A stretch of DNA of 64,000 nucleotides. Origin: Bacteroides oleiciplenus YIT 12058. Lineage in GTDB: Bacteria > Bacteroidota > Bacteroidia > Bacteroidales > Bacteroidaceae. Below, in pieces: positions 40,553-64,000 of the stretch. How positions within the stretch are numbered: position 1 is the stretch's first letter; every line of letters starts with the position of its first letter. The position numbers and the translations under genes are program-made. The DNA lies in the NCBI RefSeq assembly GCF_000315485.1, contig NZ_JH992943.1, positions 143,594 through 207,593 of the forward strand, read 5' to 3'. Under the pieces are notes generated by a model. The model did not search any database. It saw nothing but the letters and a program-made list of their open reading frames with translations, and was not told the DNA's origin.

Positions 40553-41257
40553 TTAAAGCGTATCTTCAATAGCCTTTTTGATAATTGGTTCCATTATATC
40601 ATACCCTTCACTTGTCGGATGTACTCCATCCTTCGTATATTGAGGATTTAATGCTCCGCTTTCATCCAACACCATCGCCTGGTAATAATCCACATAAGGA
40701 ATCTTGTTTGCTTTTGCATACGCTGCCACACGGGCATTTAATGATTGGATTTTCTGAGGAGCATCCTTTATTTCCGGTCTCCATTTAAAAGTTGCTGCCG
40801 GCAGCACAGATGTCAAAATCACTTTTATCTTATTTGCTTTAGCCAACTCTACCATAGAAATAATATTTCCAAATGTATACTCTTCATTGTAGGAACCTAC
40901 ATTTTCAGCAACATCATTAGTTCCAGCATTTATGACTACTAAAGCCGGAGAAAGATTAATAACATCCTCACGGAAACGCAATAAGAATTGGTAAGAGGTT
41001 TGTCCACTAATGCCGCGGCCTATATAACCATTTGTTTTAAAGAAGTCCGGATGAGTTCTCACCCACCCTTCCGTAATGGAATTTCCCATGAAGACAACTC
41101 TTTTCTCTTTCTTTACGGGCTTTGGAAGTGCAGCGTTTTCTTTTGCATAACGAGCTAAATTGGCAAAATTGTTCTTTTGAGCATATGCCTCACTGATTGA
41201 TAATCCTCCCAGAATAGTAATTAACAACAAACATTGTTTTAATCTTTTCATTTTCAT
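40553..41257 (-). CDS. Secreted SGNH/GDSL hydrolase
   Basis: A signal peptide (ends SEAYAQ) precedes the four SGNH blocks: GNSITEGW with the catalytic Ser, GRGISGQTSYQF with Gly, AGTNDVAEN with Asn, and DGVHPTSEGY with the catalytic Asp and His. Such enzymes remove acetyl or other acyl groups from sugars. It ends the leftward PUL and has a possible promoter of its own (plus-strand CAAAGATA, 41284-41291). In this context it probably deacylates the PUL substrate. Confidence 0.92.
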   Translation of the reverse strand: MKMKRLKQCLLLITILGGLSISEAYAQKNNFANLARYAKENAALPKPVKKEKRVVFMGNSITEGWVRTHPDFFKTNGYIGRGISGQTSYQFLLRFREDVINLSPALVVINAGTNDVAENVGSYNEEYTFGNIISMVELAKANKIKVILTSVLPAATFKWRPEIKDAPQKIQSLNARVAAYAKANKIPYVDYYQAMVLDESGALNPQYTKDGVHPTSEGYDIMEPIIKKAIEDTL

Positions 41258-41328
41258 ACTTAGATATTAATTATTAGGATATGCAAAGATAAAAAGATTC
41301 CTGCAAAGAAATTGTTTCTTCTACCACT

Positions 41329-43482
41329 TTACTTCCATTTCTTCACAGCCTTTTTATCTACTCCCATAGCCTCAATCAAGCTCAAAGCAAACCCACCACT
41401 GCGTGCCATTTTTACAGATATTTTGGTCTTATTGGTTACAATACCCTTCTTTATCTGATATGCAGCAGGATTCTTTTCATAATCAGCAGCTTTGCCATCA
41501 GCATACAGCGTAGCTACGTACTCTTTTCCCGGTTCCAGAAAGTCGAGAGTAAAAGTAGAAACACGGGCATTTTCATCCGTAATGCCACCCACAAACCAGT
41601 TGCCTGTACCCTTAGCTTTACGAGCTACGGTTATATAATCGCCCGGTTCAGCTTCAAGATACTTACTGTCATCCCAATCAACAGCAACATCTTTAATGAA
41701 TTGGAAAGCATCCAAATGGCGTTCATAACTTTCCGGCAGGTCAGCCGCCATCTGCAACGGACTGTAAAGAGTGACATACAAAGCCAGTTGCTTAGCCAGA
41801 GTCGTATGAATCTGACCATGATTCTCACGATTCAGGAATGTCAGGCAGATATCAAAAATACCTGGAGTATAATCCATCGGACCACCTATTAGACGGGTAA
41901 AAGGAAGCAATGTAGTATGAAATGGTTTATTCCCATCATAAGGTTCAAACTCAGTACCACGAGCAGATTCATTACCGATCAGATTCGGATAAGTGCGGCA
42001 CAAGCCGGTAGGACGTACTGCCTCATGAGCATTTACACAGATTTTATACTCAGCAGCTTTCTTCACTGCATATAGATAATGATTATTCATCCATTGCCCG
42101 TAATGGTGTTCACCCCGAGGAATGATATCACCAACATAGCCGCTCTTCACTGAGTTGTATCCATTATCTACCATAAACTGATAAGCTTTATCCAGATGAC
42201 GTTCATAGTTACGAACGGAAGCCGACGTTTCATGATGCATCATCAATCTTACTCCTTTACTCCGGGCATAATCATTCAGCATTTTTACATCAAAATCAGG
42301 ATAAGGAGTAACAAAGTCAAAGACAAAATCTCTGGAACTTCCTCCCCAACTTTCCCAACCTTCATTCCAACCTTCCACCAAGACCTGATCCATGCCATGC
42401 TCGGCTGCAAAATCGATATATCTTTTCACATTCTCATTATTGGCAGCATGACGGCCGTTTGGCTTGATCTTCGTATAATCGTTTTCACCGAATCTCATAG
42501 CAAGCAACTCATCTGTATAGCTCCATGACTTCATGCCTGTAATCATCTCCCACCAGACGCCGATATACTTCACCGGCTTAATCCAAGAGACGTCCTCATA
42601 AGCACAAGGTTCATTTAGATTCAAAGTCAGTTTCGATGCCAGAATATCCCGTGCATCATCACTGACTATAATAGTACGCCAAGGAGTTCTGGAAGGAGCT
42701 TGCATATAAGCTTTGTTACCCAAGACATCAGGTGTCAACCATGACTCAAATATCAGATTATTATCATCCAAGTTTAGGTGCATACAGGAGTAATCGACCA
42801 AAGCGGCTTCATGCAAATTGATATAGATGCCATCATCCGTCTTCATCTGTAAGGAGGTTTGAACACCTGTAGGAGAAAATACAAATTGTGAAGCATTTAC
42901 CGTTACGGCACTTTCCATTAAACCCCGTATTTCTGATAATTTAGACTCAGTATAGTCATACTCCTGTGTATCATAGTCACCCGGTATCCAAAAGGCAAGA
43001 TGATCGCCTGCCATGGCAAACTGGGTATGTTCTTCTTTCACTATAAAATAGTTCAGATTCCTTTGCAAGGGAAATTCATACCGGAATCCTAAACCATCAT
43101 TGTAAAGCCGGAAACGAATAATCATATTACGATTCTGAGCTTTCTGTTCCAGAGTCACAGCCAGTTCATTATAGTGATTACGAATTTGCGCAACTTCTCC
43201 CCATACCGGCTTCCAGGTTTCATCAAAAGTTGAAGTCTCAGTACCAGTTAATGTAAAATTATTCATCAATCCGGGATCATCTTTCAATTCCAAGCCCAAT
43301 TTTGAAGGTTTCACTACAGCCTTGCCTTTATAGAAAAGCTGATATACCGGTTCTCCCTGTGCATTTACTGTAAAATCTAAATGAAGATTTCCATCCGGTG
43401 AAGTGATACTTTCAGCCATTATTGCTCCACAGGTTAGCAGAAATAGCAAGAAACTAAATAATCTTTTAGACAAACATTCCAT
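41329..43482 (-). CDS. Glycoside hydrolase family 97 (alpha-glucosidase or alpha-galactosidase)
   Basis: The ATG at 43482 is used (a TTG two codons earlier is possible). The signal peptide ends near GAIMAES. An N-terminal beta-sandwich is followed by a TIM barrel ([32 protein letters not shown]) with the GH97 segment [20 protein letters not shown], then [19 protein letters not shown] and [15 protein letters not shown], and a C-terminal beta domain. The GEHHYGQ and HEAVRPTG glutamates favour the inverting SusB-like type over the Asp-nucleophile retaining type, but that is inference. Probably periplasmic. Two bp downstream of the phosphatase gene. Confidence 0.93.
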
Positions 43483-43484
43483 AT

Positions 43485-62507: not shown

Positions 62508-63571
62508 TATTTAAAGTTCTGCTTTCTATACCAGTTCATATACTGATTATACAGTCTGACTGATTCATCGCGCAACCCGGCGTGAGCCAATGAACCGGGC
62601 TTGTTCATAATACCAAGATATTGATATACCAGAATCTTATCTACGAACGGAGATATGGCCTCCATCTGATGGATAATCCTTTTGTCAAAGTCGGCTGAAA
62701 TCAGGCTGCCATGAGTGGTCTGTTCAAAGTAGAAAAGTTCCATGTCCGCCCATATTCTTGAACGACCGGCTTTCTGATGCGCCTTAGATAGATTTTCAAA
62801 GGCACGGGCTGATTGTTCGAATGTAGTCACGCCCACCCCTACACCATCCTGATAGGCTACAATCTCCACATTAAGCTGCTCTAATTGCCTGATAAATGTA
62901 TCATCGCATTTTTCGGCCTTAATATTATAAGGCGCGATGATATTAACGCAATTGGCATTCAATGATTTGGCTATCTGCGCACACTCATTCACATACGGGA
63001 TAACATATTCACCGAAATAGGGATCCAACCATGATTCATTAGGAAAATACCAGCCATAGAAACTCTTATGATGCCCGTATCTCGCATAAATCTCTTCCAT
63101 AGATTTGGCTCTCTTTCTTCCTAACTCTTTATCGGTCATCATCTTCACAGCATCCAGATCCAACGCCCAGTAGTCATTGCTGACAAAGAATTTAACCCCA
63201 AACTCATCAGCTGCCGCAAGAACCGTTTCAATGGGATCTTCACATCCCATCTTGAACTTAGGAGCCAAATCCGTATCATAAAATGCGAAACCATGGGAAG
63301 CCACATTCATCATAACCAGATATTCCATACCTGTTTCACGGATTTCACGGATTTTCTCCCGCCACTGAGCTGCGGTAAAATTTCTCAAATCCTTATCCCA
63401 ATACACACCTTCTTTTCCTCCCGGATGCTGAAACTCAAACCAGGAACCGGATATCGGCTTAATTTTAGGATTTTGGACAGCTTCCTGCAAAATCCCGGCC
63501 TGCGAAATACCCGGTATTAGCATGCCGGCAGCTCCCAAGCCTAAAGTCGTTAGAAAATTTCGTCGATTCAT
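62507..63571 (-). CDS. DUF4434 TIM-barrel protein with Tat signal
   Basis: The N-terminus MNRRNFLTTLGLGAAGML is a twin-arginine signal, so this protein is probably exported folded. The single DUF4434 barrel (ISGSWFEFQHPG, GMEYLVMMNVASHGFAFY, HKSFYGWYFPNESW, VEIVAYQDGVGVGV) aligns along its length with the barrel of the 518-residue paralogue, with the same order of motifs. It lacks the C-terminal beta domain. It overlaps the esterase gene by one base and follows the epimerase by 13 bp, so all are one transcript. Confidence 0.87.
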   Translation of the reverse strand: MNRRNFLTTLGLGAAGMLIPGISQAGILQEAVQNPKIKPISGSWFEFQHPGGKEGVYWDKDLRNFTAAQWREKIREIRETGMEYLVMMNVASHGFAFYDTDLAPKFKMGCEDPIETVLAAADEFGVKFFVSNDYWALDLDAVKMMTDKELGRKRAKSMEEIYARYGHHKSFYGWYFPNESWLDPYFGEYVIPYVNECAQIAKSLNANCVNIIAPYNIKAEKCDDTFIRQLEQLNVEIVAYQDGVGVGVTTFEQSARAFENLSKAHQKAGRSRIWADMELFYFEQTTHGSLISADFDKRIIHQMEAISPFVDKILVYQYLGIMNKPGSLAHAGLRDESVRLYNQYMNWYRKQNFK

Positions 63572-63584
63572 AGTATTAAATATT

Positions 63585-64000
63585 TTATTCTGATTTTATT
63601 ATCTCTTCCAGAACTGTCCAACATTGGTAAAGCCCTCTGGGTACGTGGAAACAGCCTTTCCATTTCCCGCCTTTCAGCGGTAGCAGCACCTCACCCCTCC
63701 TGTTCAAGTAACCAAACCACTCTGGATATTCCGAATCTTTGAAATGCCCCCATGTATAGTCATGAACTTTTTCGAACCATTCCAGGCACTTTTTATCACC
63801 CGTAAGCTGATATCCTTTCAACAGGGAAATGAGCGTTTCGATGTGTACCCACCAAAGTTTTTGATCCCATTCCAATTGCTGGGGAGGACATCCTTTGCGA
63901 TCCATGAAGTAGTAAATACCTCCATATTCTTTATCCCAGCCATAATCGAGCATGGTTAAAGTCACATTTTTAGCTTTTTCTATCAGCTCGGGACGGTTCA
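63585..64000 (-). CDS. AGE-family (N-acylglucosamine 2-epimerase-like) protein, C-terminal part
   Basis: The frame stays open to the right window edge, so the N-terminus is missing. The (alpha/alpha)6-barrel features of the AGE family are visible: [54 protein letters not shown] and [12 protein letters not shown], including the catalytic His region. Members interconvert GlcNAc and ManNAc, or epimerise glucose, mannose or beta-glucosides. No signal can be seen, so location is open. It fits sugar use after uptake. Confidence 0.88.

Follow-up and report, generated by a model that had tools for sequence, protein, structure and literature searches.

The window analysed here (64,000 nucleotides; C4:143594–207593, where C4 is contig NZ_JH992943.1 of the 7.09-Mb genome of Bacteroides oleiciplenus YIT 12058) contains the left part of a large leftward gene cluster. 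In total this cluster encodes two SusC/SusD pairs, nine DUF4434 proteins, three proteins resembling ADP-ribosylglycohydrolases (ADPRH), six phosphoesterases and two copies of N-acylglucosamine 2-epimerase (AGE). We regard it as an expanded polysaccharide utilization locus (PUL) of the BT0433–BT0443 type of Bacteroides thetaiotaomicron, combined with a ribose module and serving a phosphodiester-linked N-acetylhexosamine (HexNAc) glycan. The probability of this reading is put at about 0.5, with activities, sugars and substrate predicted from sequence.

Phosphoesterases joined to DUF4434 barrels

Homologues were counted by tblastn in three comparison sets: 19 loci related to the cluster, 17 pieces of simple Bacteroides loci and 18 DUF4434 loci of other genera. 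The related loci often stop at contig ends or at the 10-kb flank, where absences weigh little. Phosphoesterase homologues were counted by domain, since the best matches to a fusion protein may rest on its barrel half.

The best evidence that a DUF4434 barrel and two phosphodiester-type enzymes probably share a substrate is provided by gene fusions. In three related loci (L011, L012 and L014) Metallophos, DUF4434 and GDPD domains form a single polypeptide. L013 carries a DUF4434-GDPD fusion, in L017 Metallophos, DUF4434 and GDPD are encoded by consecutive genes, and in L019 and L027 Metallophos and DUF4434 genes adjoin. Within the fetched flanks, 14 of the 19 related loci encode homologues of one or more of the six phosphoesterases. 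The metal-binding motifs typical of these families were present in the PHP and GDPD proteins and in three of the four calcineurin-type proteins; in the MetallophosN/C protein the first Asp-x-His motif was not found at its expected place.

Genes for the phosphodiester glycosidase NAGPA also lie close to DUF4434 genes. Searches of the genus covered a sample of 60 genomes from a larger set; in 37 of the 60, completeness was 90% or more and contamination 5% or less. In the full sample of congeners 16 of 51 NAGPA matches, in 12 genomes, were within 25 kb of DUF4434, while uniform placement would give about one (0.91, a rough value because genome sizes were rounded and DUF4434 loci counted by hand). 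With sub-cut-off rows and repeats from the same locus omitted, 37 DUF4434 rows were used for this proximity and 44 for that of AGE (see below). NAGPA (one BLAST cluster, 8 loci), GHL10 and DUF5018 are frequent neighbours in the simple DUF4434 loci.

The phosphodiester theme had been proposed in a preliminary description of this DNA. With the triple fusions, the consecutive genes of L017, the 14 related loci and the enrichment of NAGPA, it gains independent support; the alpha-galactoside focus of the same description does not. PHP, the FN3-metallophosphatase (PAP-like) and GH97, which had been counted as parts of a shared system, each have a homologue in none of the 19 related loci and are therefore regarded as local additions. 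PHP as a core component was rejected on this ground; homologues of it (39–45%) occur elsewhere in four of 12 host genomes, two weak fragments being omitted.

Other homologues in the related loci were GH27 (8), ADPRH (9), AGE (6), and ribokinase together with the permease (the same 8). The simple Bacteroides pieces contained AGE in 13 cases, a MetallophosN/C homologue in five, GDPD and GH27 in one each, and ADPRH and ribose genes in none. An AGE-like gene was found in 11 of the 18 loci of other genera, and phosphoesterase homologues, GH27, ADPRH and ribose genes in none. Loss of the phosphoesterases from orthologous loci had been named beforehand as a check on the phosphodiester theme. They are kept in most related loci but are absent from all 18 simple loci of other genera; these may, however, serve another substrate, because GH27 is absent there too.

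Two features of individual loci were also recorded. At L170:1756–6884 a DUF4434_7-class gene has a NAGPA-like gene on either side; a BACON-domain gene is also present, and SusC, AGE, MFS and ROK genes adjoin. Proteins of 718–736 amino acids with a C-terminal FGE-sulfatase (SUMF1-like) domain are encoded near the triple fusions (L011:8848–11058 and L012:16900–19056).

Extent, gene content and copy number

The cluster comprises 35 leftward genes in 53 kb plus a divergent gene for a ROK regulator. Its left end is a GDSL esterase gene (40553–41257) and its right end DUF4434_9, followed by the divergent ROK gene. The end of the window cuts the gene for AGE1. Beyond AGE1 a further 20 leftward genes, read from L007 and L009, extend the cluster by about 30 kb on that strand as far as C4:237582. 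The packed leftward cluster of the preliminary description was recovered, and by Pfam every gene named in it is on the minus strand at its given place, but the window does not bound the cluster, which has roughly double the length first described. The genes within the window are as follows.

40553–41257, minus strand: exported GDSL esterase (PF13472, 93.7 bits); homologue in 0/19 related loci
41329–43488, minus strand: GH97, SusB-like, alpha-glucosidase type (Pfam GH97 domains; SusB 2d73, 1172.7 bits)
43485–44654, minus strand: FN3-like (Pur_ac_phosph_N) metallophosphatase (PF00149, PF16656; metal motifs present); 0/19 related loci
44675–45877, minus strand: GH27 (GH27a), alpha-galactosidase type, with Cys-Glu-Trp motif (PF16499; alpha-galactosidase 6f4c, 355.5 bits)
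45911–46990, minus strand: exported PHP-domain phosphoesterase (PF02811; NF038032 CehA/McbA, 80.5 bits, cut-off 80; 3e38, 219 bits)
47011–49005, minus strand: NPCBM-GH27 (GH27b) with lipoprotein-like leader (PF16499, PF08305); homologues kept beside DUF4434
49317–50459, minus strand: surface glycan-binding protein 1, SGBP1 (PF18329, PF01833)
50491–52218, minus strand: SusD 1 (PF07980, PF14322)
52233–55484, minus strand: SusC 1 (PF07715, PF13715)
55585–57141, minus strand: DUF4434 barrel 1 (PF14488, 147.5 bits; both conserved Glu; C-terminal F5/8C-like domain below the model cut-off)
57155–58705, minus strand: ADPRH-like lipoprotein 1 (ADPRH1) with lipobox-like leader (PF03747, 117.2 bits; DD and DxD motifs kept)
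58906–61092, minus strand: Metallophos-DUF4434 fusion (PF00149 and PF14488); relatives add a GDPD domain
61089–62507, minus strand: SASA-type carbohydrate esterase (PF03629, 59.4 bits); homologue in 12/19 related loci
62507–63571, minus strand: DUF4434 barrel 3 with twin-arginine-like leader (PF14488, 258.8 bits)
63585–64000, minus strand: AGE1, N-acylglucosamine 2-epimerase, C-terminal part (PF07221, NF052547); the gene continues as L007:179–1354

Past the window end the order is AGE1, MFS1, the MetallophosN/C protein, DUF4434_4, a 630-bp gap, DUF4434_5, the permease, ribokinase, DUF4434_6, ADPRH2, a CE2 esterase, DUF4434_7, a metallophosphoesterase, GDPD, DUF4434_8, SGBP2, SusD2, SusC2, AGE2, ADPRH3, MFS2, DUF4434_9 and the divergent ROK gene. 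This part accordingly adds six DUF4434 genes, two ADP_ribosyl_GH genes, the second AGE, two MFS porters, CE2, ribokinase, a RhaT/ureide-permease-like gene, a second SusC/SusD/SGBP set and three phosphoesterases (two calcineurin-type, one GDPD). As in other PULs, SusC/SusD/SGBP sets, here two, share one strand with glycosidases and esterases (two GH27, one GH97).

All nine DUF4434 matches in the genome are confined to 38 kb. The cluster as a whole also holds three of the four ADP_ribosyl_GH matches and both AGE copies; the remaining AGE matches are two pieces of 28–29% identity at one place on contig C2. Several genes are duplicates of each other: DUF4434_4 and DUF4434_9 are 91% identical, the AGE pair 89%, the MFS pair 86%, DUF4434_1 and DUF4434_5 78% and the ADPRH proteins 49–61%. 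Of 392 genomes sampled across the phylum, just 25 have a DUF4434 match above the family cut-off, which together with the confinement of all nine copies speaks against chance. On the best reading, the cluster was built by duplication and by merging of a ribose module onto a PUL of the BT0433–BT0443 type.

The DUF4434 barrels

Two Glu residues are conserved among 97 aligned DUF4434 proteins, E179 in 97 and E278 in 94. The predicted structure of the 62507–63571 protein is a (beta/alpha)8 barrel with a mean predicted local distance difference test score (pLDDT) of 85.8. One Glu of the pair stands just after strand 4, where the adjoining stretch 180–182 falls below pLDDT 50, and the other at the end of strand 7. 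A Glu after strand 4 and a second at the end of strand 7 are the arrangement of clan GH-A. The closest solved structure is 4h41, which is BT_0435 (Z 31.2, root-mean-square deviation 2.6 over 288 residues, 17% identity), followed by GH164 beta-mannosidase (Z 20.7), Cwp19 (20.2), a GH5 mannanase (19.7) and PgaB (19.2). A family missing from the Foldseek or VIA results was not counted as absent. DUF4434 thus appears to be built like a retaining clan GH-A glycosidase, and glycosidase activity is predicted from the model. With GH164, GH5 and the C-terminal domain of PgaB it has the barrel and the Glu positions in common; however, it shares only about 10% sequence identity with these enzymes, and its activity is predicted from the fold.

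DUF4434_9 matched BT_0435 directly with 697.8 bits. Among the BT_0435-class proteins of other genera that were listed, 14 of 16 start with the domain itself and have no export leader, and the open reading frames of the remaining two start at upstream codons. In Bacteroides the class mostly has a twin-arginine-like leader. These proteins are therefore probably cytoplasmic in the other genera and exported here.

An identification of DUF4434 with Listeria PssZ was rejected, as PssZ is filed, according to an excerpt of the source, in GH126, an (alpha/alpha)6-barrel family. The name DUF4434 was not found in the literature searched. In B. cellulosilyticus DSM 14838 a DUF4434_3-like gene is broken into two open frames (L025:10001–11249). 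A FAD-dependent oxidoreductase (PF12831) recurs beside BT_0435-class DUF4434 in several congener loci (L098–L137).

AGE and the amino sugars

Against the N-acyl-D-glucosamine 2-epimerase model NF052547 (cut-off 600) AGE1 scored 726.8 bits and AGE2 726.5. The best solved matches of AGE1 are N-acetylglucosamine 2-epimerases (6f04, 530.7 bits; 2gz6, 516.3). In the 60 congeners 49 of the 50 AGE rows were used, the second fragment of one interrupted gene being omitted. AGE of the cluster's type (72–100% identity) gave 29 matches in 23 genomes, of which 25 lie within 15 kb of DUF4434 and none within 3 kb of a nanA-like gene. All 20 of the other type (33–38% identity) lie within 3 kb of such a gene. 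Exceptions to the association with DUF4434 were four of the 29 and one of the 20. The term nanA-like is meant at family level, because the nanA cut-off is not reached by any match from the 60 genomes; B. oleiciplenus, like nearly every congener, has one nanA-family match (133 bits, cut-off 382). Its genome has no AGE of the nanA-linked type, and the cluster no N-acetylneuraminate lyase gene.

Because the AGE type separates from nanA-like genes, sialic acid use appears unlikely, which leaves N-acetylmannosamine (ManNAc) or N-acetylglucosamine (GlcNAc) as likely catabolites. One of these is also the likelier backbone sugar, since AGE is the most widespread partner of DUF4434. The related loci add amino-sugar genes, namely NagB-PIG-L, SIS, ROK kinase, GH20 and glucosaminidase-type GH2. 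GH27, part of the alpha-galactoside focus of the preliminary description, recurs in eight related loci, but it is AGE and not GH27 that accompanies DUF4434 most widely. An amino-sugar glycan of ManNAc or GlcNAc, possibly decorated with galactose, glucose and ribose, therefore agrees better with the data than an alpha-galactoside does.

Predicted ROK operators

Fifteen regions upstream of ROK relatives, that of the cluster among them, yielded a 20-bp palindrome. Within the 96 kb that surround the window it has sites of at least 20.9 bits at C4:237707 and C4:237910, in the gap between DUF4434_9 and ROK, and at C4:212454, in the 630-bp gap that precedes DUF4434_4. The last of these forms a second pair with a weaker site at C4:212653 (16.2 bits), and the spacing is about 200 bp in both pairs. 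Ten Markov shuffles yielded 0 to 2 sites of at least 14 bits apiece. In the whole genome the only matches with at most one mismatch were C4:237707, C4:237910 and C4:212454, all in the cluster; matches with two mismatches (11 and 8) were not in excess over the control (12 and 12).

A near-unique operator sequence thus sits at the head of each of the two cluster halves, and the ROK protein is predicted to bind it, as a repressor. The pair before DUF4434_4 is the independent part of this evidence. Since DUF4434_4 and DUF4434_9 are duplicates, this pair could have been copied from the DUF4434_9/ROK pair. The window part of the cluster lies downstream of the pair before DUF4434_4, with internal gaps of 100, 200 and 311 bp. 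A scan for Bacteroides-type promoters gave none in the cluster gaps and two matches, both within DUF4434 genes. Scans of 46000–59500 for sigma-70 promoters and terminators (39 promoter-like sequences against 28 expected; 6 terminator-like against 10.8 expected) were not used.

The 311-bp gap between GH27b and SGBP1 (49006–49316) contains, at 49140–49278, an array of repeats of about 22 bp, each a small palindrome, within a longer stem. None of 100 shuffles folds as well as its transcript strand (z −3.4).

Relation to known systems

In congener loci of the BT0433–BT0443 type a ROK gene is divergent from DUF4434, with MFS, AGE, SusC and SusD genes, and this set is also seen at the right end of the cluster. 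The B. thetaiotaomicron locus comprises ROK 'NanR' (BT0433), BT_0435 and SusC (BT_0439), and DUF4434_9 is the counterpart of BT_0435. The likeness was drawn through these congener loci rather than from the B. thetaiotaomicron locus itself, and ROK is taken as the BT0433 counterpart by position rather than by sequence comparison, because it stands beside the BT_0435 counterpart. The part of the source available (PMC3878776) gives BT0433 the name NanR, with the entry 'Sialic acid; N-acetylglucosamine'. A FAD oxidoreductase is present in the simple congener loci, often along with NAGPA and GHL10, but none of the three is present among the Pfam-scanned genes of this cluster; in contrast, the cluster has nine DUF4434 genes, six phosphoesterases, ADPRH, ribose genes and GH27.

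A locus of Dysgonomonas mossii (L010) is a compact counterpart of the left half, with DUF4434_3 84% identical, and loci of Bacteroides timonensis and B. cellulosilyticus (L022, L025) are counterparts of the right half. Unlike these, B. oleiciplenus has both halves in tandem.

Ribose utilization systems of Bacteroidetes were reportedly described by Glowacki et al. in 2020. The cluster resembles them in its ribokinase and ribose-permease-like genes together with SusC/SusD, and one locus of that kind, L168, likewise has ADPRH-family genes. It differs in that the ribose genes sit among DUF4434, AGE and phosphodiesterase genes, while a simpler locus (L167) is found elsewhere in the genome.

Proposed function

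The glycan would be imported by the two SusC/SusD/SGBP sets. Exported phosphoesterases of calcineurin, GDPD and PHP type would open phosphodiester links and remove phosphate, and the DUF4434 barrels would cleave HexNAc glycosides, most likely of ManNAc or GlcNAc, next to these links. GH27, SusB-type GH97 and the esterases might strip galactose, glucose and acyl groups, and the ADPRH-like proteins might free ribose. MFS and ribose-permease-like porters would import the sugars; AGE would interconvert ManNAc and GlcNAc, and ribokinase would phosphorylate ribose. The ROK regulator presumably acts on the palindromic operators heading both leftward halves.

A cell-envelope phosphoglycan of other bacteria, either teichoic-acid-like or a phosphate-containing capsule, is the most plausible candidate for the substrate but is suggested only tentatively. 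In its most complete form the proposal, which we likewise consider rather doubtful, is a full pathway for a ManNAc/GlcNAc phosphodiester polymer of other bacteria decorated with alpha-galactose or alpha-glucose, acyl groups and ribose, in which DUF4434 would be a new clan GH-A family of HexNAc glycosidases fused to phosphodiesterases of the neighbouring bond. If so, the substrate class of the BT0439–BT0443 operon would be named as well. Among characterised gut loci we know of none that feeds on a bacterial glycan with phosphodiester links, and none was found in a literature search outside which most subscription journals fell.

Several observations weigh against the proposed function. No phosphoesterase homologue was found in five of the 19 related loci (L018, L021, L025, L026 and L028, L018 being just 4.4 kb long). 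Phosphodiesters are not tied to every DUF4434, because phosphoesterase homologues occur in 0 of the 18 loci of other genera and in 5 of the 17 simple Bacteroides pieces. Nucleotides and lipids, too, are substrates of calcineurin, GDPD and PHP folds. NAGPA is absent from this cluster, the sole match in the genome being at C1:1403976. The activity of DUF4434 is a prediction only, and 4h41 is titled putative alpha-L-fucosidase. The operator model is AT-rich and was trained partly on the cluster's own ROK site, ROK binding being predicted, and the left-half gaps of 100, 200 and 311 bp could hold separate promoters. To our knowledge, ribose has no place in the known simple teichoic acids.

Ribose genes and a possible ribose utilization system

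What ribose does in the locus is its least well explained aspect. An alternative, which we consider unlikely, is an enlarged ribose utilization system in which phosphoesterases and ADPRH-like enzymes free ribose from nucleotide or ADP-ribose-type conjugates and the glycosidases remove attached sugars. The ribokinase is above the cut-off of its model (TIGR02152, 355 bits, cut-off 299.65), and it accompanies the permease in the same eight related loci, with ADPRH in nine. A ribose-type locus without DUF4434, L168 of a congener, encodes the permease, a metallophosphatase and three ADPRH-family proteins. The model of ADPRH1 resembles ARH3/DraG folds; because it is weak (pLDDT 73), it was used for family placement only. 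ADP-ribosylglycohydrolases are marked by the Mg-binding motifs TDD and DTDT; in ADPRH1 (YDD, DSDC) the Asp residues are kept and the Thr positions changed. No paper on an ADP-ribosylglycohydrolase within a PUL was found in the literature search.

Nucleotides, however, need no AGE, GH27, SASA or nine DUF4434 proteins, and no nucleosidase was recognised in those genes of the cluster that were scanned with Pfam. Elsewhere the genome has another ribokinase-permease-SusCD locus (L167), which holds the closest other genomic copy of the permease (76% identical) and a sub-cut-off nucleoside-hydrolase match. GH27 also occurs without ribokinase in six of the 19 related loci.

GH27, GH97 and a possible alpha-galactoside locus

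An ordinary alpha-galactoside/alpha-glucoside locus (two GH27, one GH97), whose phosphoesterases just scavenge phosphate, might instead lie beside an unrelated DUF4434 locus. The 311-bp gap sets off the block GH27-PHP-GH27-metallophosphatase-GH97-GDSL, and PHP, the PAP-like protein, GH97 and GDSL have no homologues in the 19 related loci. On the other side, NPCBM-GH27 homologues adjoin DUF4434_3 in several of these loci, GH27 is found in eight of the 19, and a Metallophos-DUF4434 fusion is encoded within the window itself. We therefore judge this explanation unlikely.

GH27 alpha-galactosidases are marked by a KYDxC nucleophile region and a Cys-Glu-Trp recognition motif. Both are present in GH27a, while GH27b has KYDxC without Cys-Glu-Trp. 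GH97 matches SusB (2d73) with 1172.7 bits against 207.2 (5e1q) and 206.8 (3a24) for retaining GH97 alpha-galactosidases, and its assignment as an alpha-galactosidase was rejected.

Sialic acid and fucose

A host-glycan or sialic-acid locus, in which AGE handles ManNAc derived from sialic acid, would agree with the listing of BT0433 as NanR noted above, which again rests on the part of that source available. It is made quite improbable by the absence of nanA-like genes within 3 kb of all 29 cluster-type AGE genes, against their presence at all 20 of the other type, a comparison that covers lyase-like genes and leaves sialidases aside, and by the low score of the lone nanA-family match of a genome without AGE of the other type. 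A locus for fucosylated glycans, with DUF4434 proteins as alpha-L-fucosidases, is very improbable indeed, since the title of 4h41 is apparently itself a prediction, no GH29, GH95 or fucose pathway gene is present among the cluster genes scanned, and the next folds are GH164 beta-mannosidase, Cwp19 and GH5 mannanases.

Neighbouring genes

Tail-to-tail with the left end of the cluster, the plus strand of the window at 33042–40462 encodes a Met-zincin protein with DUF5117 and DUF5118, SusC and SusD.

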